Assembly (NCBI RefSeq): GCF_009026825.1
Contig: NZ_CP045032.1
Location: forward strand, 2,170,001 to 2,234,000
Direction: 5' to 3'
Source: Corynebacterium urogenitale
Lineage (GTDB): Bacteria > Actinomycetota > Actinomycetes > Mycobacteriales > Mycobacteriaceae
Length of the DNA stretch: 64,000 nt
The position numbers and the translations under genes are program-made. The notes under the pieces are model-generated. The model saw only the letters and a list, made by a program, of their open reading frames with translations, was not told the DNA's origin and did no database searches. Positions 5,589-48,201 of the stretch are shown here, piece after piece. The number at the start of each line of letters is the position of its first letter. Within the stretch, counting starts at the first letter, position 1.

Positions 5589-6410
5589 ATGGTGCCTATG
5601 ATGACTGGTGTGACTCGAAACCAGGGCCACGGGGCGAAGCTGGCGATCTTCGACCTCGACAAGACCATCATCAACACCAGCGCCTCTATGGCGTATGGTC
5701 GCCCCCTCGCCGAGCGCGGCCTCATCGGCACTCCCGAAGTGCTGCGCATGATGGTTCACCTGGGCAATTACATGCTCACCACCCACACCGAGGAAAACAT
5801 GCAAGCCACAAAGCATGCCCTCCTCGGCATGGTTCGCGATCGTGAAGAAGAGGCCCTCCGCAGCGTCGCCCAAGACGCCCTCCAGGAGGTCATCACCCCC
5901 TACATCTACGCCGAGGCCCGCACACTCCTCGAGGAGCACCGCGAGCAAGGCCACCGCATTGCGATCGTCACCGCCTCCCCTTCCGTGATGGTGGAACCCA
6001 TCGCTAACGAGCTCGGCGTGGACCACCTCATCGCCACCGAACTAGAGGTCAAGGACGGCCTGTTCACCGGCGAGGTACTGCACTTCAATAAGGGCATATC
6101 CAAGGTCGAACACATTCGCGGACTGGTGGAGGCAGAGGGCTACGACCTCGAAAACTCCTTCGCCTACTCCGATTCCTTCACCGACCTGCCAATGCTGCAG
6201 CTCGTCGGCAACCCCACCGCCGTCAATCCGGACCGTCCGCTGCGCAAGTACGCGCTAGAGCACAACTGGCCGATCCTTCGTTTCGAAAACCCTGAGCCCC
6301 TCTTCCAGCAGAGCGCCGTCCTGGCCGGCGCCGGCGCAACCCTCGCCCTCCTCGGAGCCGTGGCCACCGGCCTGGCTTTCTGGTTTAAGTCCCGCGACGA
6401 AGACACTTGA
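5589..6410 (+). CDS. HAD-IB family hydrolase, SerB-like (Rv3661-like)
   Basis: A 273-residue phosphatase of the haloacid dehalogenase superfamily, subfamily IB. Motif I is FDLDKTII (nucleophile Asp and general-acid Asp), motif II is IVTASPS, and motif III is YSDSFTDLPM. A hydrophobic helix near the C-terminus (about residues 240-265, AGAGATLALLGAVATGLAF) suggests membrane anchoring with the catalytic domain in the cytoplasm. The family includes phosphoserine phosphatases and lipid phosphatases, and the substrate cannot be set from sequence. Alternative in-frame starts lie 9 and 18 bp downstream. It is divergent from the Tad operon. Confidence 0.85.
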   Translation: MVPMMTGVTRNQGHGAKLAIFDLDKTIINTSASMAYGRPLAERGLIGTPEVLRMMVHLGNYMLTTHTEENMQATKHALLGMVRDREEEALRSVAQDALQEVITPYIYAEARTLLEEHREQGHRIAIVTASPSVMVEPIANELGVDHLIATELEVKDGLFTGEVLHFNKGISKVEHIRGLVEAEGYDLENSFAYSDSFTDLPMLQLVGNPTAVNPDRPLRKYALEHNWPILRFENPEPLFQQSAVLAGAGATLALLGAVATGLAFWFKSRDEDT

Positions 6411-6471
6411 AGGCGCCGTCGCGCTAGCTAGGGCACCGAAGCTAAGCGCCGACTAGACACCGAGCAACGAG

Positions 6472-7269
6472 CTACTTCGCGTCTGCAATCGACTTCGCTT
6501 CCAGCGACCCCTCCGACAGCCCCTCGGCGTGGAAGATGATCCATTCCGCCACGCCCTCGGCCGTCCCCTCAGCAAACCCGGCCGCCTTAGAGCGGTATTC
6601 TTCACGCCTGCGGTTCCACCACACCTCTGGCACACCCAACCCGCGCGGATCCAGGCCGCCGGAGATCGTCGCCAACCTGGAGCAAGCCCTAGCGGTGACG
6701 CCATTGGCGTCAGCGAAGGGGGACAGGGCGAGCAGCTCACCATGGATGATGGCAGACAGGACTACCGAGTTCACCTTCGTACCACCGCTAATCAGCCGCC
6801 CAAGCAGTTGGAGGCGCCCATCCGCATCCCGCTTCGGCCGGCCGGGGACAAGGAACTCTGCGCTGCCCGCCGCCTTGGCACGGAAGGCCTCATCCGACAT
6901 CTGCGGGCTGGCGACCGCGTTGATGCGTGCGATGACCTGCAATGGGGCACGACGCCAGGTGGTCTGCGTTTCCGTAATTCCATCCGGAGCTAGCATCTCT
7001 GCCGCCCGCAAGGAGCCCGCGAGGATGGGATCCTCCACCTGACCGTCTTCCGGCAACCACGGCGTCCCGCCATCCAACTGGGCTGACGCACGCGCGCCGC
7101 GCAACACGGATTCCGCGCCGGTCACATCCCAGCCACGCAGGTTGGCAGGATGGCGATGCACCCGGGCAATGTAATCGTTTGCTTTATCTACGGCCTCCTC
7201 CACACCGGGCAGGTGAGCGAGGGGTTCGAGGGGGTCAGAAGTGCGTTGCGCGTCAGACATAGTCACCAC
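6472..7269 (-). CDS. Fic-domain-like protein with degenerate active site
   Basis: A 265-residue protein I relate to the Fic family. The region LALSPFADANGVTAR (about residues 183-197) aligns with the Fic core HPFxDGNGRxxR, but the catalytic His is Ser, the second Gly is Ala and the following Arg is Val. Upstream, SAQLDGG resembles the inhibitory (S/T)xxxE(G/N)-type helix of Fic proteins. AMPylation activity is therefore unlikely and a structural or binding role is more plausible. A GTG at 7269 is preferred because AAAGGGTG precedes it, with ATG at 7260 as alternative. Similar mycobacterial proteins at this locus are annotated only as conserved hypothetical, as far as I remember. Confidence 0.6.
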   Translation of the reverse strand: MVTMSDAQRTSDPLEPLAHLPGVEEAVDKANDYIARVHRHPANLRGWDVTGAESVLRGARASAQLDGGTPWLPEDGQVEDPILAGSLRAAEMLAPDGITETQTTWRRAPLQVIARINAVASPQMSDEAFRAKAAGSAEFLVPGRPKRDADGRLQLLGRLISGGTKVNSVVLSAIIHGELLALSPFADANGVTARACSRLATISGGLDPRGLGVPEVWWNRRREEYRSKAAGFAEGTAEGVAEWIIFHAEGLSEGSLEAKSIADAK

Positions 7270-7361
7270 AATAATTCACCCTTTCGCGCGAGATTCCCGC
7301 CGGTCTGGCAAACTAGATGGAGTAAATCTGCGAAGTAACTGATATTTCTGGGAGTAATTCC

Positions 7362-7877
7362 GTGAGCAAGAACACCAGCGAAGGCCTCTACACCGACCGC
7401 GATAGCTTTAACCCGCAGGTCAACGCTATTCCTCTGTCCGACGCAGACTCTCACGCACAGGGTCAGGGCAGCATCGGGGATCTGGTGAAAGACGCCTCTG
7501 CTCAGATTTCCTCCCTCGTGCGCTCCGAGATCGAGCTGGCGAAGACCGAGGTTGCGACCTCCGCGAAGAAGGCTGGTATTGGCGGTGGCCTGTTCGCCGC
7601 CGCAGCTGTGATCTTGGCCTACAGCTCCTTCTTCCTGTTCTTCACCATCGCCGAGGCTTTCGATACCTTCATGCCTCGCTGGCTGGCGTTCCTCGTTGTC
7701 TTCCTCATCATGCTGGCTCTCGTGGCCATCCTTGCCCTGATCGGCCTGAAGCAGGTCAAGGGCGTGAAGAAGCCTGAAAAGACCATCGAGTCCGTTAATG
7801 AGCTGAAGTCCGTGGTGCCTTCCAAGGGCAAGTCCTCCAAGCCTGCAAGCAATTCCCAGGGTGGCATGTTCTCCTAA
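7362..7877 (+). CDS. Phage holin-X-like membrane protein (Rv3669-like)
   Basis: A 171-residue protein with a soluble N-terminus, an amphipathic helix (IGDLVKDASAQISSLVRSEIELAKTEV, broken here as about residues 35-60), two transmembrane helices (about 70-95 and 103-128) and a basic Ser/Lys-rich tail. This is the 'actinobacterial holin-X, superfamily III' layout, which despite its name is a chromosomal housekeeping membrane protein and not a sign of a phage. The GTG start is preceded by GGGAG seven bases upstream. It is followed 27 bp later by the alpha/beta hydrolase, the same order as in mycobacteria. Confidence 0.78.
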   Translation: MSKNTSEGLYTDRDSFNPQVNAIPLSDADSHAQGQGSIGDLVKDASAQISSLVRSEIELAKTEVATSAKKAGIGGGLFAAAAVILAYSSFFLFFTIAEAFDTFMPRWLAFLVVFLIMLALVAILALIGLKQVKGVKKPEKTIESVNELKSVVPSKGKSSKPASNSQGGMFS

Positions 7878-35120: not shown

Positions 35121-36065
35121 ATGGATTCAAAGCGCAGAGAAAATAACAATCCGATCTGGAATCTGGACACCCTCGACCGCAAACTGATCGCATCCGTGGC
35201 CCAAGATCCGGCCGCGCCCTACTCCCAGTGGGCCGAGGATTTGGGAGTCTCCTCCCGCACCATCGCGCGCCGCTTTGGACAATTGGTCCGTCGCAAAATT
35301 GTGCGTGTGTATGGCCGAACCCTTCCGGATTTCGGGGGACGGGTCGCTTGGCTGGCGCGTATTCACGGCTCGCCCTCTAGGCTGGGTCCCATCGGTGTTG
35401 AGCTGGCGGAGCTCGAGACCACCCGGTGGGTGCGCTTATCTAAGGATCGCGGCGAGATGATCTGTGGCATCATCACCAGCCCCTCCGCCTACACCGATAT
35501 CCTGTTCCGTCTACATTCAGTGGTGCCGTCCCGCGACATTCGGATCCACCAGCTGCTCACGGTGTGGGGCGAGCCCGGCAGTGTGACCTCCGGCGCGGAA
35601 AGCATCGACAACGTCGACCGGAAACTGTTGGCTGTGTACGCGCGGGACGGCCGCGCCACCGCCAGTGCGGTCGCGGCGGAGCTACATATCGATGCCGCCA
35701 CGGTCTCCCGGCACCGGCGCAAACTCGTGGAATCCGGCGTACTCTACTTTGAGGCGGACGTGCACCCGGACGCGCTGGGGACGGGTGGTGATGTGCTGCT
35801 CTGGCTGCGCGTGTCCCCAGGCCATATCGAAAAACTGGGCCGCCACTTGAGGAGTCTGCGCGTCACCCGCTTCGTCGCAGCCACCAGCGGGGAGCACCAG
35901 ATCGTCGCAAACGTGGTGCTGCCCACCGCCGCCGATGTCATCATGTTCGTTGACGGGCTCGCCGGCCACGGAGTCACCCATGTGGAAACCGTGCCGATGG
36001 GATACGCCTATAAGCGTTCCGCGCCACCGACGATGCCCGCGCGGCGCACGCCGACAACCTCCTAG
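35121..36065 (+). CDS. Lrp/AsnC-family regulator with two helix-turn-helix units
   Basis: A 314-residue transcription regulator. The N-terminal HTH is LDRKLIASVAQDPAAPYSQW followed by EDLGVSSRTIARRFGQLV. A second similar unit (VDRKLLAVYARDGRATASAV, AELHIDAATVSRHRRKLV) starts near residue 173, and each is followed by a ligand-type beta-sheet domain. Tandem Lrp proteins of this type are known but less common. It is divergent from the MFS gene (135-bp gap), suggesting it controls that exporter and the amidohydrolase. The ligand is unknown. Confidence 0.82.
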   Translation: MDSKRRENNNPIWNLDTLDRKLIASVAQDPAAPYSQWAEDLGVSSRTIARRFGQLVRRKIVRVYGRTLPDFGGRVAWLARIHGSPSRLGPIGVELAELETTRWVRLSKDRGEMICGIITSPSAYTDILFRLHSVVPSRDIRIHQLLTVWGEPGSVTSGAESIDNVDRKLLAVYARDGRATASAVAAELHIDAATVSRHRRKLVESGVLYFEADVHPDALGTGGDVLLWLRVSPGHIEKLGRHLRSLRVTRFVAATSGEHQIVANVVLPTAADVIMFVDGLAGHGVTHVETVPMGYAYKRSAPPTMPARRTPTTS

Positions 36066-36087
36066 AAGCCTGCTCGGCTGGAGAAAA

Positions 36088-38435
<2,348 letters not shown>

Positions 38436-38578
38436 GTGGCTTTCACCCCTTCATGCGCGCTGACCTGACAGACGCGCGAGTTCGTTCGTCTTGTTGCGCC
38501 GATAGTACCCCAGTTATCCACCATTCGGACAGGGTAGGTACGGTTTTTCTCCCCCGCGTGCATTAGATTTGTTTATCG

Positions 38579-39457
38579 ATGTATGAGAACAACCTTTTGG
38601 CGATTTTCTTCGCACTGCTTTCCGCGCTGACGATTGCGTGGGGCACGGTGATTCGCCATCGGGTTGCGGAAAACACCGCCGAGGGGGACGTGCCGATCAT
38701 GGCGGCGCTCCGTTCGAAGTGGTGGTGGGCGGGGCTTGCTGGGGCGATGGCTGGCTATGGTTTGCAGATCGTCGCGCTGCGCTTCGGCACGTTGCTCATC
38801 GTTCAGCCGATTTTGGTGCTGAGCTTGATGTTTACGTTGCCGCTGGCGTCGTTGATGGACGGCAGACGGATCAGCAAGGCGGAGACGACGTGGGCGGCTT
38901 TCTTGACGGTTGCCGTCTCCGTGCTCGTCGTTCTTGGCCGTCCGACGTCAGCAACCGCTCATCCCAGCGCCACCACATGGATCATCGCATTTCTCGTTGG
39001 GGTGGTTCTCATCGCGCCGGTCTATGTGCTAACGCAGAGATGCGCCAGGCCGATACGCGCGCTGCTCCTCGGCGGTGTCACGGGGGCAATCATGGGCTAC
39101 TTGGCGCTCATGTCCAAGGCGGTGGTGGATGTGTACGCGCACTCGGGGCCGGGAGGGGTTGCCACGAGTTGGGAGATCTATGCGCTACTGGCGCTGGCCG
39201 GTGTGGGGACGGCGGTGCAGCAGGCCAGTTTTAATGCTGGCGATTTGAAGAATTCCTTACCAGCAATGACTATCGTTGAACCCATTGTTGCCTTCGCGTT
39301 GGGATACATCGTGCTGGGCGAGCATTTCCAAGTGGCGTCCTCCGCCGGCTGGGCGATCATGGGCGCAGCCTTCACTATCATGGTCGGCGCCACCTTCGCG
39401 CTCAGCAGGATGGGTGCCCAGATGAACGAAGTCCCAGGCGATCGGATGCCGAACTAA
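38579..39457 (+). CDS. DMT-superfamily (EamA-like) transporter
   Basis: A 292-residue membrane protein with about nine or ten helices of the drug/metabolite transporter type. The sequence has two homologous halves, for example AIMGYLALMSKAVVDVY in the second. Its substrate is unknown. A TAGATT hexamer at 38564-38569 lies about 10 bases before the ATG, so transcripts may be leaderless. It is divergent from lysC and just upstream of the MBL gene. Confidence 0.8.
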   Translation: MYENNLLAIFFALLSALTIAWGTVIRHRVAENTAEGDVPIMAALRSKWWWAGLAGAMAGYGLQIVALRFGTLLIVQPILVLSLMFTLPLASLMDGRRISKAETTWAAFLTVAVSVLVVLGRPTSATAHPSATTWIIAFLVGVVLIAPVYVLTQRCARPIRALLLGGVTGAIMGYLALMSKAVVDVYAHSGPGGVATSWEIYALLALAGVGTAVQQASFNAGDLKNSLPAMTIVEPIVAFALGYIVLGEHFQVASSAGWAIMGAAFTIMVGATFALSRMGAQMNEVPGDRMPN

Positions 39458-39473
39458 GAGGAAGTGAATAACA

Positions 39474-40310
39474 GTGACCATCAGCACGAGATTCGCAGGA
39501 GTGGCCAACGTCCTCATCACGGATGGTGAAAGCAGCATTCTCGTCGACGGATTTTTCTCTCGTCCGACGATTCCCCAGCTCGCGCTCGGTAAGCTACATC
39601 CGGATCGCGAGCGCATTTCTGCGGGGTTGAAACAGCTAGGCGTGAACAGCCTCGATGCCGTGATGGTGACCCACTCCCACTACGACCACGCGCTGGACTC
39701 CCCCACGGTGGCGGAAATGATGGGCGCCACGATCCACGGCAGTCCCTCCACGCGGAAGATTGCCGAAGGCTATGGGGCGTTGGCGGCAGGTGTCGATTTC
39801 CGCGAGATGCACGACCGGGAGCCGATCACCGCCGGTAAGTTCACCATCACTCCCATCCACGGGCTGCACAGCGAGCCAGACCGCTTCCCAGGAAAGATCA
39901 CCGAGCCGGTCTCCACCCCCGCCTCTGCAGCAGACTTCCGCATGGGCGGCTGCTTCTCCCTCCACATCGCCCATCCAGAGGGCAGTGTGTTCGTGCACCC
40001 CTCCGCGAACTTCATTCCGGGTGCGCTGCAGGACTTTGAAGCCGATGTTGTGTACCTAGGCATCGGTGCGGCGGGCAGCCAGCCGGAGGAGTGGATCCGC
40101 GAGTACTGGAAGGAAACCGCCGTGGCCTTGAGCGCGAAGACGGTGAGACTCATCCACTGGGATGCATTCTGGCGGCCACTGAGCAAGCCACTCAAGCCGA
40201 TCCCTTGGCCTTTCGACCGTGTGGGCAAAACGATGCGCATTTTCCGCGAAGAAGCAGGCCAGCAGGTCGATGTGCGTCTGGCGGAGCTATGGACGAGCCT
40301 CGACGTCTAG
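39474..40310 (+). CDS. MBL-fold metallo-hydrolase
   Basis: A 278-residue metallo-beta-lactamase-fold protein. The metal motif is THSHYDHALD. A second His follows in PIHGLHS, and the domain ends with LIHWDAFW. The protein is related to the lactonase UlaG-type and phosphodiesterase-type hydrolases; the substrate is not known. The GTG start has GAGGA upstream. It lies 17 bp downstream of the DMT gene and ends 7 bp before the convergent pgsC. Confidence 0.78.
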   Translation: MTISTRFAGVANVLITDGESSILVDGFFSRPTIPQLALGKLHPDRERISAGLKQLGVNSLDAVMVTHSHYDHALDSPTVAEMMGATIHGSPSTRKIAEGYGALAAGVDFREMHDREPITAGKFTITPIHGLHSEPDRFPGKITEPVSTPASAADFRMGGCFSLHIAHPEGSVFVHPSANFIPGALQDFEADVVYLGIGAAGSQPEEWIREYWKETAVALSAKTVRLIHWDAFWRPLSKPLKPIPWPFDRVGKTMRIFREEAGQQVDVRLAELWTSLDV

Positions 40311-40317
40311 GCAACCC

Positions 40318-41328
40318 CTAAGCGAAAGCAAACACTGAAGCCGCAGCAGCAATGACGCCGGTCGAGACACCCATTCCTGGCAGCGTGCGCTTATACCCGT
40401 AGTTCAGCAAATCGTTGGCTATCACAGCTGGGAGAATGCAGAAAACCAGGTTTTCCGTCCGGAAGAACTGCATGTCGAAGTAGCGTGCCAGCAGGAACTC
40501 GCTGAAGGAGACCAAGGCGAAAGAGAACAGGCACAGGAACACAAACCTGTGCTTTCCGAAGAGAGGAACCTGGCGGAGGTAGAATCTTCCGGCGGCGTAG
40601 ACGACGGCGGTGGAGAAAAGCAGAACCCAGAGGTAGTTCACATTGAACACTGCTGCGGCAATGAAGCCGGCCGAAACATAGCCACCAGTACGCCAGCCCA
40701 GTTTCTTTAGCGGTCCCTCCTGGATAAACAGCGCCAGGCAGACGGAAACTGCAGCCATGAGAATGAGGTAGAGGTGGTCAATCCCTCGACCAAAGAGGTC
40801 GTCCTCTGCAATTGAGCCGAACACAGACCTCGAAAGCAAGGCCAGTAGCAACCCGGCTCCGGCGCTCAGAGGTACCAGCCATAAGGCTGGGATCAAGGTT
40901 TTACCGATGCCCTGCTTCATGAAGGAGTTGCACAGCATTCCAGGGATGACCACTCCAATCACCGCCAGGCCCAAGGCCTGTGGTTGGGAATCAAGAACGA
41001 CAACGCTGAGCACTTGCCACAGAATCTCGAGGAAGACGCCCACCAAAAGACCAATTGCGAAGATGACTCGAGGGCGGGGGAGCCACAGTTTGAGCACGCC
41101 ATAGCGAATGAGCGAGTGCGCAACAAACGCGATCAAGATGGTTAGGACGACTCTGCCAGGCATGTAGAGCGACGCAGCGAGGTAGCCAATACCAAGACTG
41201 CCGCCCACCATGATCTGCTTTTTGCGGAAGTAGAAGTAGGAGGCCAACAACCCACAGAAAAATGTGAGGTGGATGTACGCGGCCGTGAACTCCGGGTTTT
41301 CGAAGTATTGATGGTGAAGAAATTGCAT
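40318..41328 (-). CDS. pgsC: PgsC/CapC-like poly-gamma-glutamate membrane protein, duplicated
   Basis: A 336-residue polytopic membrane protein. Classical PgsC/CapC proteins have about 150 residues, and this one holds two PgsC-like units: about 14-165 (GGSLGIGYLAASLYMPGRVV, IGVVIPGMLCNSFMKQGIGK) and about 190-330 (GGYVSAGFIAAAVFNVNYLW, FCILPAVIANDLLNYGYK). PgsC works with PgsB in gamma-glutamyl polymer synthesis and membrane export. It starts 2 bp after pgsB, consistent with translational coupling. Base composition is richer in A/T than the flanking chromosome. It ends 7 bp before the convergent MBL gene. Confidence 0.82.
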   Translation of the reverse strand: MQFLHHQYFENPEFTAAYIHLTFFCGLLASYFYFRKKQIMVGGSLGIGYLAASLYMPGRVVLTILIAFVAHSLIRYGVLKLWLPRPRVIFAIGLLVGVFLEILWQVLSVVVLDSQPQALGLAVIGVVIPGMLCNSFMKQGIGKTLIPALWLVPLSAGAGLLLALLSRSVFGSIAEDDLFGRGIDHLYLILMAAVSVCLALFIQEGPLKKLGWRTGGYVSAGFIAAAVFNVNYLWVLLFSTAVVYAAGRFYLRQVPLFGKHRFVFLCLFSFALVSFSEFLLARYFDMQFFRTENLVFCILPAVIANDLLNYGYKRTLPGMGVSTGVIAAAASVFAFA

Positions 41329-41330
41329 TA

Positions 41331-42566
41331 TTAGACCGCGACCTTGCTTTCTTGTCCCTCAACAAGTGCGTCGATGTAATGACGCATCTTTGTCACCTGC
41401 TCGGTATGGATGTTGACCATGCCGAAGAGTGCGACTTCATCATGATCAAGGTCTTCCACTGCGCGGTTAATCAATTCCCTTCCGCTGCAATCTTCTTCGA
41501 AGTCATTGGTCTGGACAACGTGTTCTTCCGAGAAGCCCTCGTCCAGCAGCATCTGGTAGACGGCGTCTTGCAGCTCTCCGTACAGAACAATCCGATCGAT
41601 CTCATCCCGCAATTCGCTGGAGATGAGGTCGAGGAACATTTTCGCGCGGTCCGTACGGTCTTCACGGTTGTTCAGTGCCACTACCCTGGCCGCCCCTTGC
41701 GGCAGGGACTCCTCCGCCACAGACTGAAAAACCTTCACGGTCGACTCCCAGTCGTTAATCGCAAACATTGGGACCCAGAACAAATCCTTTCCATCGCTGA
41801 GGGATACCTCGGTCACGGTAATGGTGCCTGGATCCGGCTTTGCGCTGAGCATTCCTTCGCAAGCAGTTTGCGGGTCGATGCCGATGATCTCCGCTACAGC
41901 GAGGGCGACGGCCACATTTTCCTCGAACTGGTGGTAATTGAACTTCTTCACCAAGGAATGCGATAGTTCGCTTGGGTCGGCGAAGACTACTTCCGCACCC
42001 TTGAGGTCAGCTTCCTCTTGAATTACCTCACGGAGCTCTGGGTCACGCTCGCCGGTAACGACGATTCCTCCCTCAGGAATCGTTGTGCACAGTGACCGCG
42101 CAATTTCCTCGAGGGTGTCGCCCATTTCCTCTTGGTGATCCAGGCGCACGTTAGTGATGACTGTGATGGGGGATTTCAAGATATCGCACTGGCAGATCTC
42201 CTGGTATCGCGGCTTCACCGCCATGCACTCGGTCACGAGACCACGAACCTCGGGGCCGATCCATTTCCGCAGAAAGTCGTACTGCTCACCAATATTCGCA
42301 GGGCCGGTGCGCTTGATGGGGTGCTCTTCGGCATCCGGGCTAATCACACATGCGTAGGTGCCAGTGGTTTTAGCGATCGTTGGAATACCGGCAGCGCGAA
42401 CAACACCACCGAGCATGCGAGTCACCGTGGACTTACCTCGAATTCCATTGACGTGAATGTTGACATCGAGCCTATTCAAGCGTTCATTATGGGCTTTCTC
42501 GCTCCGCCAAAACAAGGTACCGAAACCTATCACAAAAACTAACGATAAAAAGAAAAAGAGGAACAT
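41331..42566 (-). CDS. pgsB: PgsB/CapB-like poly-gamma-glutamate synthase
   Basis: A 411-residue Mur-ligase-like amide ligase. An N-terminal membrane helix (about 1-20) is followed by the ATP-binding loop NGIRGKSTVTRM (40-51), then TVITNVRLDHQEEMGDTLEEIA, a classic PgsB/CapB segment, and VVALNNREDRTDR. The enzyme adds glutamate through the gamma-carboxyl to build poly-gamma-glutamate. The ATG at 42566 is supported by TTAAGGAGA. It lies between capD (67-bp gap) and pgsC (2-bp gap). Confidence 0.87.
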   Translation of the reverse strand: MFLFFFLSLVFVIGFGTLFWRSEKAHNERLNRLDVNIHVNGIRGKSTVTRMLGGVVRAAGIPTIAKTTGTYACVISPDAEEHPIKRTGPANIGEQYDFLRKWIGPEVRGLVTECMAVKPRYQEICQCDILKSPITVITNVRLDHQEEMGDTLEEIARSLCTTIPEGGIVVTGERDPELREVIQEEADLKGAEVVFADPSELSHSLVKKFNYHQFEENVAVALAVAEIIGIDPQTACEGMLSAKPDPGTITVTEVSLSDGKDLFWVPMFAINDWESTVKVFQSVAEESLPQGAARVVALNNREDRTDRAKMFLDLISSELRDEIDRIVLYGELQDAVYQMLLDEGFSEEHVVQTNDFEEDCSGRELINRAVEDLDHDEVALFGMVNIHTEQVTKMRHYIDALVEGQESKVAV

Positions 42567-42633
42567 TTCATCTCCTTAAACTGTTAACGTGGTGAAGAAT
42601 TAATAATTTGTCGTGTACTTGCGCCTGGAAACC

Positions 42634-44637
42634 TTATTGCTTCTCAGTTCCTCCCAGCGCTAGCCCCATCCGGCGAGGGTCGGACACCGCGTGCACTTCC
42701 CCATCGGTGAGCGCAACAACGCTCAGACCTGAATCCGCCACTCGCTCCACACGAGGAACGTCATCCTCGCTATCCTCGGATTTCTTTGAGCTCTTGCCCC
42801 TTTGCCGATCACTCGTGCGTTGTTCCGGCGGATCAGCTTCGACATACTCTTTCGAGCGATTCGCTGCTCCATAATTCGGCAACAGCACCGCCTCTTCGGC
42901 CGTTAAATCGAGATCGAGGATCCCCACCAGTACTTTCAGGACATAGGAAGGGATTTTGGAACCACCCGGAGACCCCACAGCCACGGTGGGCTGACCATTG
43001 TCCAGCACCATCAATGGAGACATCATCGTCTTCGGGTGCGCGGCAGCCTTCCGGATATTTGCCCGCTCCCCTTTTCCTTTTTGCGAAGAGAAATTATCGA
43101 GACTGTTGTTGAGGAAGAAACCATTGACAAAAATTCCGGATCCGAAATTTTTCTGCAACGTTGTTGTCGTACTTACCCAGTTTCCGTATTGATCTTTAAC
43201 GGTGATTTGGGACGTGCCTTCCTCCTCGAAGTCCTCGTATTCCTCCTCTACTCCAGGGAGCTTGTAGGGTTCAGGTTCCTTCGCTATCCGGCCGTCTGCG
43301 GCATCGTCAGCAGCATCCTTAGCCCGGCCCTTATCGCGAACAACCTCATCCAGGTACCCCTCGGTAACACGATGAGCCATCGACGGGTCACCCATGTAGG
43401 TATTGGCATTCGCCATAACTACGCGCTGAACATCAGAGAGAACTTTCCTCGACTCATCGTCCTGAGTTTCCGAAGTGCTCTTGGCCCCCTTCGGAGCGAT
43501 CGCATCTTCTGGCAGATGAGAAAAGATATTGAGCGTGTGGCTAACAAAAGTGAAGCCCGTAGCAGGAGAGGAATTCCCGCACACCTGTTTTTCCCTGTAG
43601 TCCACACAGACGGCGTCATCGGTACGGGTCATAGCCCGATCTTCTTCCGCACCAATCCAGTCCGTAGCGAGCGTTTTCGCTTGCTTTAATCTTTCATCTT
43701 TCTTGGTCCTCTTGGATGCAGCCCTGTCATCGGTCCGCTGCAAGTCCAAAGCCTGTTCAGCTATGTCATCAGCGACGTCATCGACATCCGCACCATTGGT
43801 CCCGAAGATGGGTTGATCATCCGCAATCCGCTGGACAGTTTTTGCATAATCTGGATTTTTGATTCGCGAATCTTCATCCGCATCTGCAAGCTTCCGCAGG
43901 TATTTCTCGCTCTGTGTATGGTCCGAGTCGAACATGTCACTACGGCTGCCCACGGCTTCCACCAACCTTGGCGAGGGTTTGAAACCTTTGTTCGCCCTGT
44001 CGATGACCGGCTGGAGAATCCGCTGCTTATCCAGCTTCCCGTGGTCCGCGTGCAGCGTGCGCATCACTTCAAGTGTGCGCGGCACACCAACCCGGCCAGC
44101 AGCCCCTGCGCGCTCCGGTTTTTCAACGTCACCGTATGGCGCGTTGACGGTCCCATCCAGAGAAACAAGCTTGTCGGCTTCTGCGTCGTAATACACGGAG
44201 ATCGCGCCACCACCAGGCCCCGAGGATTGCGGCTCTGTCAGGCCGAGCATCATCTGCGCCGCAAACGTGGCGTCTGCGGCAGTTCCCCCTTGGGCTAAAA
44301 CCTCACACCCTGCGAACGTCGCCGCGGGGTTCGGGGTAGATATTGCGAACGCATCTGTGCTGTTTAGGCTCACCTCATTGGAAGAATCAACCTGGCTAGC
44401 GCTCTGTTTGCTACTTCCACCTTGCGGGTCTTTTCCACAGGCCTCGAAGGTGCGCGGAGGCGTTATGGAAGATGGAGTGGAAGGTTGTTGCTGAGAGCTC
44501 GTCGGCTTTTGCTCCGAGGAAGTCTCGTGGGGCTGGCCAGCATCCTGACCACTACCACACGCAGCAAGAACCGTCGCCAGTGCAGCGGTAGCGCTCAGCA
44601 GCCCTACAGCACGGGTATGTTTCCATTGCCTCAGCAA
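42634..44637 (-). CDS. capD: CapD/gamma-glutamyltransferase-like lipoprotein
   Basis: A 667-residue Ntn-hydrolase related to gamma-glutamyltranspeptidase and the B. anthracis capsule-anchoring enzyme CapD. A lipoprotein signal precedes Cys27 (LAAC). Family features are AQGGTAADATFAAQMMLGLTEP, SGPGGGAISVYYD and the auto-cleavage site GTSQITVKDQYGNW, with Thr475 as predicted nucleophile; the second Thr of the usual TT pair is Ser and the His is Gln. Between the two core halves lies a long charged segment rich in Lys, Asp and Arg. TTG at 44637 is supported by AAGGAG six bases upstream. It is the first gene of the cluster. Confidence 0.78.
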   Translation of the reverse strand: MLRQWKHTRAVGLLSATAALATVLAACGSGQDAGQPHETSSEQKPTSSQQQPSTPSSITPPRTFEACGKDPQGGSSKQSASQVDSSNEVSLNSTDAFAISTPNPAATFAGCEVLAQGGTAADATFAAQMMLGLTEPQSSGPGGGAISVYYDAEADKLVSLDGTVNAPYGDVEKPERAGAAGRVGVPRTLEVMRTLHADHGKLDKQRILQPVIDRANKGFKPSPRLVEAVGSRSDMFDSDHTQSEKYLRKLADADEDSRIKNPDYAKTVQRIADDQPIFGTNGADVDDVADDIAEQALDLQRTDDRAASKRTKKDERLKQAKTLATDWIGAEEDRAMTRTDDAVCVDYREKQVCGNSSPATGFTFVSHTLNIFSHLPEDAIAPKGAKSTSETQDDESRKVLSDVQRVVMANANTYMGDPSMAHRVTEGYLDEVVRDKGRAKDAADDAADGRIAKEPEPYKLPGVEEEYEDFEEEGTSQITVKDQYGNWVSTTTTLQKNFGSGIFVNGFFLNNSLDNFSSQKGKGERANIRKAAAHPKTMMSPLMVLDNGQPTVAVGSPGGSKIPSYVLKVLVGILDLDLTAEEAVLLPNYGAANRSKEYVEADPPEQRTSDRQRGKSSKKSEDSEDDVPRVERVADSGLSVVALTDGEVHAVSDPRRMGLALGGTEKQ

Positions 44638-45080
44638 TCAGCGCTCCTTAGGAGATATCCAGTACAGCCCCATTCCCAATCGACCACATGGAAAACTCAA
44701 CCCATGACAGCGACGAACACTCTCGCGCGCTTAGCTTTCCAAGAATCAGATCAGAGCGAGCAGTACTCCTCGGTTTCTTTTTCGCCTCGGTAGCCCCAGC
44801 ACCCCTACCCCCATTCGGAACGCAGACGCGACTGCTTGCCACAGGGGTAGCGACACTGTCTCCTGCTCACACAGCTATTGACCACGCTTTTCATTAAAAG
44901 CCCGAGTGCTACCTGGCGCGGTCAGAATACTGTCAGACAAACCCACGCGCAATACTTTTCTCAAGCTATAAAAAATCTATGTTCACCTGCGAATATACAA
45001 TTAACCTGAAATTCATATTCAACATAGTTTCATCAAACAAAGGTAACCCTAAGTAACCACACCCTTCCGGCTTCAATTCT
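44638..45080. other. Intergenic region upstream of capD, A/T-rich
   Basis: This stretch of 443 bp precedes the minus-strand capD gene. It is visibly rich in A and T (for example around 44985-45050) and has no recognisable protein. It presumably holds the capD promoter, but I could not fix a -35/-10 pair. CTCC-TTA-GGAG, a small palindrome next to the capD start (44646-44656 region), overlaps the ribosome-binding site. Confidence 0.5.
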
Positions 45081-45087
45081 CAAATTG

Positions 45088-45127
45088 TGAGACGTTTTAG
45101 ATTCTTATGCCACGAGTTGAGACGTTT
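45088..45127. repeat. Direct repeat TGAGACGTTT upstream of leuA
   Basis: The 10-bp sequence TGAGACGTTT is present at 45088-45097 and 45118-45127, with starts 30 bp apart (about three helical turns). Each copy is part of an imperfect ACGT-centred palindrome (TGAGACGTTTTA, for the first). The second copy overlaps the proposed -35 box of the leu leader. They may be operator sites, possibly for an IclR-type leucine regulator such as LtbR. Confidence 0.45.
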
Positions 45128-45135
45128 GTTATAGT
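45117..45135 (+). promoter_or_regulatory. Candidate promoter for the leuA leader
   Basis: TTGAGA (45117-45122) and TATAGT (45130-45135) give a close -35/-10 set, with a spacer of only 7 bases; a more normal spacing would require a different upstream hexamer. TATAGT is the likely -10, with transcription starting near 45142-45143, at the leader-peptide ATG. Confidence 0.4.
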
Positions 45136-45142
45136 GGTTCCC

Positions 45143-45205
45143 ATGATGCAGATGCACCAGCCCCTCAAGGGCCACCGGCTCCTTATGAGCCGCGGCGGGA
45201 TTTAG
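45143..45205 (+). CDS. Putative leuA leader peptide
   Basis: A 20-residue open frame (M-M-Q-M-H-Q-P-L-K-G-H-R-L-L-M-S-R-G-G-I) directly after a TATAGT -10 box, so it may be translated from a leaderless transcript. Three Leu codons, two of them tandem, fit transcription attenuation of a leucine gene. A stem GCAGGG/CCCTGC follows about 80 bases later, before leuA. No clear T-run follows the stem, so the mechanism is uncertain. Confidence 0.4.
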   Translation: MMQMHQPLKGHRLLMSRGGI

Positions 45206-45329
45206 TTCCCCGAGCAAGCCTCACCGCAGGCTGGCGACCGGCCCCCGTCGCGGACGATACGCCCCTTTCACGCAGGGCAGCTTTTACCCTGCCGGCCGTC
45301 CTTCCATTTCGTGCGCGACCTTTCCATAG

Positions 45330-47270
<1,941 letters not shown>

Positions 47271-47286
47271 CGCATCACATAGCTCA

Positions 47287-48201
47287 TCACACTGGGTTCG
47301 CCGCTCGCGGCGCACCCATCCCCGGATCGATCTTCGTCGGCCCGTCTTTGCCAGGGCGGATGTCGAACTCGATCGGCGCCGCGCCCAGCAGCAGGTATGC
47401 CTGCTCCGGGGTGTAGCCGAAAGTCGTCAGGTAGTCGATGGCATGCAGGATCGCCCGCTGGTACGCCAAGTGGGAGTCGAGGTATCGCTGCTCCCCCTCC
47501 AAGGTGACGGAGGTACCACTGAAGGCCAGCCACTCCGAATAATCGGGCCCGGCCTTGCCCGGCATGAAGATCGCATTTTCCTCCACGCCGTACGTGGCCA
47601 TTCCGCCCTTGATGATGTCTACGTGCAACTCCATGAAGCCGCCCATTTCAATGGCTCCACAGAAGGTGATCTCTCCATCACCTTGGGAGAAGTGCAGGTC
47701 GCCGAAGGAGAGGTTCGCACCGTCCACGAAGACCGGGTAGAAGACGCGTGTTCCCTTCGTCAGGTTCTTAATGTCCTGGTTACCGCCATTTTCTCGCGGT
47801 GGTGCGGTGCGCGCAGCCTCCGCCGCAACGCGCGCGAATTGCTCCTCGCTCAAAGAACCGAGGATCGCCCCATCCGGCTCCGGTGGCAGCGCCAGCGGCC
47901 CTTCCTCGTTCGGGATCGGTCCGATGTCCACGATGTCCACAATCAGCAGATCTCCGGGCTCGGCTCCCTCGATATGAAAAGGGCCGGTGAGGGTATGGAC
48001 AGTGTGCAGCGGCGCGTCGCGGATGTCCTCGGCGGAATCATCGTTCTTGATGAAGCCATCGAACCACTCGCGGCAGTCCGCCCGGAATGTCGTGCCCGGT
48101 TTGATGGTGGCCACCGGCGGAATTTCCGGGTGCCAGCGGTTGTGCCCCAGCTTCTGCCAACGTTCACGGCGGAGACGATCTTGGGCGCGGGTTCGGCACA
48201 T
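47287..48201 (-). CDS. fmdA: Shortened acetamidase/formamidase (FmdA/AmdA) family protein
   Basis: A 304-residue protein of the acetamidase/formamidase family, which hydrolyses short amides to ammonia and acid. GHNRWHPEIPPVATIKPG, NDDSAEDIRDAPL, SQGDGEITFCGAIEMGG and EQAYLLLGAAPIEFDI are clear family segments. From memory, members are about 400 residues. Here the normal N-terminus of about 20 residues, an internal block after VDIVDIGPIPNEEG and the strip near the C-terminus (GRISGVVDIPNAC-like) are missing. The gene overlaps fmdB by 259 bp in another frame. It may be decayed or a minimal form. Confidence 0.6.
   Translation of the reverse strand: MCRTRAQDRLRRERWQKLGHNRWHPEIPPVATIKPGTTFRADCREWFDGFIKNDDSAEDIRDAPLHTVHTLTGPFHIEGAEPGDLLIVDIVDIGPIPNEEGPLALPPEPDGAILGSLSEEQFARVAAEAARTAPPRENGGNQDIKNLTKGTRVFYPVFVDGANLSFGDLHFSQGDGEITFCGAIEMGGFMELHVDIIKGGMATYGVEENAIFMPGKAGPDYSEWLAFSGTSVTLEGEQRYLDSHLAYQRAILHAIDYLTTFGYTPEQAYLLLGAAPIEFDIRPGKDGPTKIDPGMGAPRAANPV

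Follow-up and report, generated by a model that had tools for sequence, protein, structure and literature searches.

A probable poly-gamma-glutamate cassette in Corynebacterium urogenitale with a double-domain PgsC, a GGT-fold surface partner and no CapA

Poly-gamma-glutamate (PGA) occurs as the polymer in natto slime and in certain bacterial capsules, and CapD, an enzyme of the gamma-glutamyltransferase (GGT) family, belongs to the cap operon of Bacillus anthracis. The role of CapA/PgsA in such systems has long been disputed, the protein being held to be essential, stimulating or dispensable. The operon is given as CapABCDE, and the PGA model of CapsuleFinder takes CapB and CapC as mandatory and CapA and CapE as accessory, and forbids PgsS, a PGA-digesting enzyme (PMC5542703). 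C. glutamicum engineered with Bacillus pgsBCA makes 18 g/L PGA, as cited in a review (PMC4928254), so a corynebacterial envelope can export PGA. No report of native corynebacterial PGA was found in the open-access papers searched, in agreement with an earlier sequence-only reading of the locus described here, which knew of no described PGA capsule in Corynebacterium. The window analysed (64,000 nucleotides of C. urogenitale, contig NZ_CP045032.1, positions 2,170,001 to 2,234,000) contains three consecutive minus-strand open reading frames (ORFs; 40318-44637), which quite probably form an acquired PGA cassette, in which PgsB and a double-domain PgsC would work without CapA and the polymer would be cut at the cell surface by a GGT-fold enzyme.

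Cassette genes and their occurrence in the genus

The three ORFs are separated by gaps of 2 and 67 bp; positions, strand and gaps were as in the sequence-only reading, and the layout is operon-like, in keeping with the single operon proposed there. The features of the cassette are as follows.

40318-41328, minus strand: pgsC/capC, for a membrane protein of 336 amino acids (aa) with two predicted fused CapC domains (PF14102, 138 bits in 2 stretches, cut-off 27).
41331-42566, minus strand: pgsB/capB, for a predicted ATP-dependent amide ligase of 411 aa with a hydrophobic N-terminus (TIGR04012, 333.5 bits, cut-off 222.7; tree).
42426-42446, minus strand: P-loop GIRGKST of PgsB (seen in the sequence; motif G.RGKS[TS]).
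42634-44637, minus strand: first gene of the cassette, for a predicted GGT-fold surface lipoprotein of 667 aa with a TTG start and the lipobox LAAC (PF01019, 257.4 bits; lipobox pattern).
43213-43215, minus strand: codon T475, the predicted autoprocessing and catalytic Thr of the GGT-fold protein (aligned with the residue that opens the small subunit in solved GGT structures).
43093-43104, minus strand: codons S512 to N515, of which S512 and N515 replace GGT Gln430 and Asp433 (E. coli numbering; residue alignment).
44149-44151, minus strand: codon T163, which replaces GGT Arg114, the clamp of the alpha-carboxylate (residue alignment).

The identity of PgsB was confirmed by hidden Markov models, the score on the TIGR04012 equivalog (333.5 bits) lying well over the cut-off. 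A FolC or Mur ligase was rejected as an alternative assignment, since folC scored 46.1 bits (cut-off 162.65) and murC 24.9 bits (cut-off 335.1), and the grouping with these ligases that the sequence-only reading had named as its possible refutation was therefore not found. The P-loop motif was present in 32 of 32 PgsB rows. In a PgsB tree with midpoint root, long branches and a bootstrap that had not fully settled, 27 corynebacterial rows formed one clade (100/99) on its own long branch, which was adjoined by two actinobacterial rows with double CapC (G354 and G298; G and L numbers denote genomes and loci) and stood apart from three rows with single CapC. Five loci that gave no clean frame (L044, L056, L057, L063 and L077) were omitted from this tree, and three (L010, L047 and L049) were open pieces.

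For PgsC, the earlier assignment to the CapC family likewise stood (PF14102), and the gene rule of CapsuleFinder, CapB plus CapC, accepted the window genes when applied by hand (PMC5542703). The two halves of the protein are homologous (hhalign probability 85, E 5.9e-6, 17% identity over 133 columns), and on this alignment PgsC of the window is read as a fused duplication with two CapC domains; no solved relative of it was found by sequence. In a phylum sample of 396 genomes, 24 matched CapC at E 0.001 (own genome included), 21 of them over the cut-off. Two close CapC matches in one frame were seen in the window and in G298, G354 and G380; G423 has two separate CapC copies, and the remaining phylum genomes gave single matches, four of them weak.

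The genus was surveyed in 242 Corynebacterium genomes. PgsB was over its cut-off in 29 and CapC, each time with two matches, also in 29, with a union of 30; together with G141, which holds PgsB fragments alone, 31 genomes were pgs-positive. The locus is thus not the isolated oddity for which it had been taken, and pgs genes are already named in public records of several Corynebacterium species (machine annotation).

The GGT-fold enzyme and the alternative partner

The GGT-type gene of the cassette (linked type) adjoins pgsBC in 20 genomes with differing neighbourhoods, on the same strand before pgsB in 15, after pgsC in four, G178 among them, and on the opposite strand beside pgsC in one. In G178 (L059), GGT-type genes stand on both sides of pgsBC, one each, both with the Ser/Asn pair described below, and extra copies of the linked type occur in G019 and G209. 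The lipobox pattern was found in 14 of 20 pgs-linked rows, the window protein included. When the 242 genomes were searched with a profile of the linked type (A3), with at most five candidates scored per genome, the type was assigned by score to 21 genomes, all of them pgs-positive (Fisher p 4.8e-23, kinship ignored); 17 gave single matches of at least 705 bits, four gave matches in two pieces, and the next score was 470 bits.

Six alignment columns were set against the residues that serve E. coli GGT in substrate binding, Gln430 among them. The window protein, which lies under the cut-off of NCBIfam TIGR00066 (179.8 versus 357.85 bits), keeps the catalytic Thr and has Thr for Arg114, Ser for Gln430 and Asn for Asp433. 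T475 is invariant in A3 and in 20 linked rows. The 21 linked rows, which come from 20 loci, all retain the catalytic Thr and have Thr, Val or Ile for Arg114, Ser for Gln430 and Asn for Asp433. The same Ser and Asn, with Thr, Val or Ser for Arg114, occur in three proteins encoded elsewhere in pgs-positive genomes (L089, L091 and L092), and the pair is also present in three public Corynebacterium GGT rows (P0005, P0016 and P0021). Arg, Gln and Asp are all retained in eight GGTs of housekeeping type from pgs-positive genomes (L083-L088, L093 and L094), none of which has the pair; L090, from a pgs-positive genome, is a third GGT type with Arg at the Asp433 column. Among 33 GGT loci of pgs-negative genomes, Arg114 is kept in 32 and gapped in one (L111), Asp433 is kept in 30 and replaced by Arg in three, and the Ser/Asn pair is again absent (0/33).

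The possibility that an ordinary housekeeping GGT merely happens to adjoin pgsBC was considered, as the cassette gene is the sole PF01019 gene of its genome. Its substrate residues are replaced, unlike those of the GGTs at the 33 loci of pgs-negative genomes, and the linked type recurs beside pgsBC in 20 genomes with differing neighbourhoods; both points make this explanation very improbable indeed.

In the GGT tree, from which one non-GGT frame (UNLINK_L088_706) was excluded, the linked type forms one clade of 26 rows (100/100), which is united with the housekeeping GGTs of corynebacteria and two further GGT rows (97/99). It stands apart from L082, an actinobacterial protein that adjoins pgsBCA, scores 206 and 136 bits to two CapD chains, keeps Arg and Gln and has Asn at the Asp433 column; L082 served in the tree as the proxy of CapD, which itself lies outside it. 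The linked-GGT profile scored 93 and 88 bits to two CapD chains, compared with 152 and 106 bits to B. licheniformis GGT chains. Orthology of the window gene with CapD was rejected on this tree with its proxy, on the profile scores and on the residues, and the label of CapD given by the sequence-only reading was replaced by that of a separate, GGT-derived clade. Since the linked clade joins housekeeping GGTs and stands apart from L082, the corynebacterial enzyme seems to have arisen from ordinary GGTs by a recruitment of its own, without descent from CapD.

In GGT, Arg114 binds the alpha-carboxylate and Asp433 the alpha-amino group of the substrate (PMC8062742). The GGT-fold active site would thus have lost residues that hold the free alpha-amino group and alpha-carboxylate of a terminal gamma-glutamyl group, as would be expected if the nitrogen of the donor is already acylated, i.e., if the donor is a residue inside a chain. 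We infer that the residue switch marks a shift from a free gamma-glutamyl end to a residue inside PGA. In the proposed scheme, PgsB would act at the membrane as a P-loop amide ligase, spending ATP to lengthen the chain by glutamate. The double-domain PgsC would accompany it in the membrane and probably let the polymer out, and CapA would not be required; outside the cell, the lipid-anchored, self-cleaving GGT-fold enzyme would cut gamma-glutamyl bonds of the polymer, which may be L-rich without CapA. The enzyme would probably be mainly a depolymerase or releasing enzyme, with transfer to the wall as a possible activity, because the D433N variant of E. coli GGT loses transpeptidation and keeps 82% of its hydrolysis, with an added glutaryl-acylase activity (PMC8062742).

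Alternatively, the enzyme could work like CapD of B. anthracis and attach PGA covalently to the envelope, forming a true capsule. It is predicted to be a surface lipoprotein encoded beside pgsBC, Asn stands at the Asp433 column in the CapD-type proxy L082 too, and there are basic residues, K561 (in 16 of the 20 linked rows) and R656 (in 19 of them), at sites that may match the acceptor residues Arg423 and Arg520 of CapD. R656 is common in other GGT rows as well (9 of 13 unlinked rows and 12 of 14 of the remaining group), and a hydrolase-like protein fills the place of the partner in five genomes. The acceptor residues of CapD are given as Arg423 and Arg520 in the same article that reports the loss of transpeptidation in D433N and 4-5% residual hydrolysis in B. 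licheniformis GGT R109M/L (PMC8062742), both of which argue against CapD-like work. Anchoring as the main role is therefore regarded as unlikely, though as an option to be kept in mind, and cutting of the polymer is preferred.

The five pgs-positive genomes with this hydrolase-like protein lack a linked GGT and encode a protein of cluster c9 beside pgsC (in L048 at 6878-7648). In Foldseek's own list its predicted fold comes close to those of PGA hydrolases and other zinc hydrolases, and PghP (3a9l), YndL (5onj) and N-formylglutamate amidohydrolase appear as possible relatives of this alternative partner, not of the window gene. Sequence motifs had pointed to PghP. The search for it scored at most nine candidates per genome. 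No Pfam match of the cluster was found at 1e-3; weak FGase matches were obtained (E 0.0019, under the cut-off, and 7.5e-7 in another member), and searches of PHROGs, NCBIfam and PDB sequences gave nothing useful.

Neither partner was found in five further pgs-positive genomes (G040, G095, G141, G143 and G194), all of which have broken or partial pgs genes. The reverse does not always hold: three of the four genomes of the C. kroppenstedtii group have a pgsB that is interrupted, or divergent at its end, despite the presence of a partner. C. kroppenstedtii lacks mycolates. Separately, G141, G095 and G094 (L056, L049 and L048) have common genes flanking pgs, two of them with pgsB remnants only, and these common flanks suggest that the pgs genes were lost in place. 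The broken copies, the C. kroppenstedtii group and the low guanine-plus-cytosine (GC) content of the window cassette could together mean that the cassette is an acquired relic without present function in its host; all three window ORFs are intact with their catalytic residues kept, and we consider such a relic hardly probable.

From these distributions a wider picture may be drawn, to which about even credence is given: a PGA system that is mobile, lacks CapA by nature, has a duplicated PgsC at its core and needs a surface polymer-cutting partner to persist, so that the synthase decays along with loss of the partner. This partner would be either re-invented from an ordinary GGT, by swaps of the residues that recognise a free gamma-glutamyl end, or recruited from zinc amidohydrolases.

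CapA and the acquisition of the cassette

No PgsA/CapA was found in the cassette, as the sequence-only reading had stated; elsewhere in the genome, two PF09587 (PGA_cap) matches lie about 1.6 Mb from the cassette in contig coordinates. One is an intact CapA lipoprotein of 407 aa (L007:8437-9660), and the other, about 14 kb from it, has an in-frame TAG (L006, about 6255-6975, minus strand; 596256-596975 of the own genome). Over the 242 genomes, CapA was over its cut-off in 29, of which three are pgs-positive (G000, G183 and G209), when 3.7 were expected among the 31 (Fisher p 1.0, kinship ignored). Coupling of CapA with pgs over the genus was rejected on these counts, so that CapA does not regularly belong to the corynebacterial pgs system. 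The intact lipoprotein could in principle complete a conventional PgsBCA complex in trans; given the same lack of linkage over the genus, this is held to be improbable.

In the phylum, CapA was searched for in 19 of the 23 other CapC-matching genomes, the four weakest CapC matches being omitted. Among the 16 without a double PgsC, CapA lay within about 500 bp of CapC in 12 and about 5 kb from it in three (G369, G423 and G593), and none was found in one, G595, a genome 77% complete. In two of the three genomes with double PgsC, a long frame immediately downstream contains a CapA match; in G298 no adjacent CapA was seen, and the contig ends nearby. Such CapA-domain matches directly downstream of a double-domain PgsC in other actinobacteria were recorded in frames of 771 aa (L077, 5266-7581) and 1348 aa (L078, 4372-8418, minus strand). 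That a missing CapA means an incomplete system, as had been supposed, is not supported: B. subtilis with pgsBC but without pgsA over-produced PGA, at 26 g/L and with a D/L ratio of 5/95 (PMC6029982).

The genes next to the cassette in the window are as follows, in the overall order asd, lysC, DMT transporter, MBL-fold gene, pgsC, pgsB, GGT and leuA.

37170-38435: lysC.
38579-39457: DMT transporter gene.
39474-40310, plus strand: MBL-fold hydrolase gene, convergent with pgsC (PF12706, 43 bits).

The earlier placement of the block between lysC and leuA was right as to its flanks and overlooked the DMT transporter and MBL-fold genes, which separate lysC from pgsC. The GC content is 54.6% in the cassette and 62.6% in the rest of the window, and of 299 sliding windows of 4.32 kb the five with GC as low or lower all overlap the cassette, which is the A/T-richest stretch of the window, as the sequence-only reading had noticed against its neighbours.

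For the lysC-leuA interval, nine genomes, all pgs-negative, were fetched of 40 with a lysC match. lysC, the DMT gene and leuA lie together in one stretch in seven of them, and neither the cassette nor the MBL-fold gene was found at the lysC locus in any of the nine. The cassette stands beside lysC and the DMT gene also in G018 and G143, leuA being outside the fetched G018 stretch. G018 is probably C. auriscanis, since its identities to the window equal those of hits named as that species. No match over 60 bits to the MBL-fold gene was found at this place in 11 other loci compared, and the gene possibly came with the insert. The pgs loci are spread over about 16 neighbourhoods, an approximate count because flanks reached 7-9 kb on each side at most and some contigs were short. 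In C. glyciniphilum AJ 3170, the cassette is carried by plasmid pCgly1, which has a MOBF relaxase and was typed as mobilizable; the record already names pgsB, PgsC/CapC and gamma-glutamyltransferase. Horizontal acquisition, as proposed before, is supported by the relatives' intervals without the cassette, the low GC, the number of neighbourhoods and the plasmid copy.

Other observations were made around the pgs loci. In C. tapiri, a SpaA-type pilin gene (L011, 10577-12193, plus strand) lies directly downstream of pgsC, and in G018 an open frame of 1800 aa with SdrD_B and SpaA repeats (L041, 12598-18000, minus strand) lies near the cassette. Just upstream of leuA in the window, a short ORF read by eye (45143-45205, plus strand; MMQMHQPLKGHRLLMSRGGI) is preceded by a promoter-like site (45107-45135); it had no Rfam match and is possibly a leuA leader peptide. 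No RNA family was matched in 36000-48000 of the window, and a promoter and terminator scan gave no excess over shuffles.

Weight of the evidence and comparison with known systems

Several points weigh against a CapA-free PGA cassette with a polymer-cutting GGT-fold enzyme. PgsC scores 81.6 bits on TIGR04011, under the equivalog cut-off of 96.45. As to expression, which we presume, no minus-strand promoter-like site was found (one site in all, 2.4 expected). The G143 copy beside lysC is decayed, with two stops in pgsB and the GGT gene gone. The score gap of the linked GGT type arises partly by construction because linked GGTs served to build the A3 profile; the residue comparison on the 33 GGT loci of pgs-negative genomes is independent of it. 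Older Bacillus work, as told in PMC6029982, had pgsA essential, and a review assigns to PgsA the moving of the chain out of the cell (PMC4928254). Residue changes of this sort are also known outside polymer processing, with Asn at 433 in class IV cephalosporin acylases and Ser at 114 in some extremophile GGTs, and their effects vary, B. licheniformis R109S retaining 85% of activity and B. subtilis D445N losing 90% (PMC8062742).

The product might also be something other than gamma-PGA, i.e., a different amide polymer or a short oligomer of gamma-glutamyl units, for example one bound to a wall component. The long-branched clade of corynebacterial PgsB, the double-domain PgsC under its equivalog cut-off and the lack of a native corynebacterial product in the open-access papers searched would fit such a compound. 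The score of PgsB well above its own equivalog cut-off and the two unrelated kinds of partner, one from a gamma-glutamyl enzyme family and one with a PGA-hydrolase-like fold, argue for PGA, and a different product is given a low probability. On balance, the genes are regarded as a real and acquired PGA cassette that probably works and is a variant of its kind, free of CapA, with a double-domain PgsC and a surface enzyme that appears to have evolved independently.

If so, a genus whose natural PgsBC apparently works without CapA makes the dispute on CapA directly testable, with an L-rich polymer as the prediction, and the residue switch may serve within the genus as a simple sequence test between polymer-processing and ordinary GGTs. 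Should PGA be made, it would be a native surface polymer of several Corynebacterium species, bearing on envelope and biofilm, and would add one more outer polymer to an envelope of the mycolate type. Some of the carrier species are animal- or human-associated.

Like PgsBCA(E)/CapBCADE of Bacillus, the cassette has the PgsB ligase and the PgsC membrane protein in tandem and, as in the operon of B. anthracis with CapD, a gene of the GGT family. It differs in that CapA is missing from the cassette and unlinked with it over the genus, in the predicted fused duplication of PgsC, and in the position of the GGT-fold gene, which comes first in 15 of 20 adjacent cases. CapD of B. anthracis (3G9K) shares with the corynebacterial enzyme the GGT family, the catalytic Thr, the surface location and the genomic link with a PGA synthase; unlike CapD, the linked GGT lacks the Arg kept in the alignment of CapD large chains, its profile scores lower to CapD chains than to B. 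licheniformis GGT chains, and its clade stands beside housekeeping GGTs, apart from the CapD-type proxy. The engineered PgsBC of B. subtilis (PMC6029982) is alike in combining PgsB and PgsC without PgsA; PgsC is single-domain there, whereas the corynebacterial system is natural, with a double-domain PgsC and what appears to be a dedicated surface partner.

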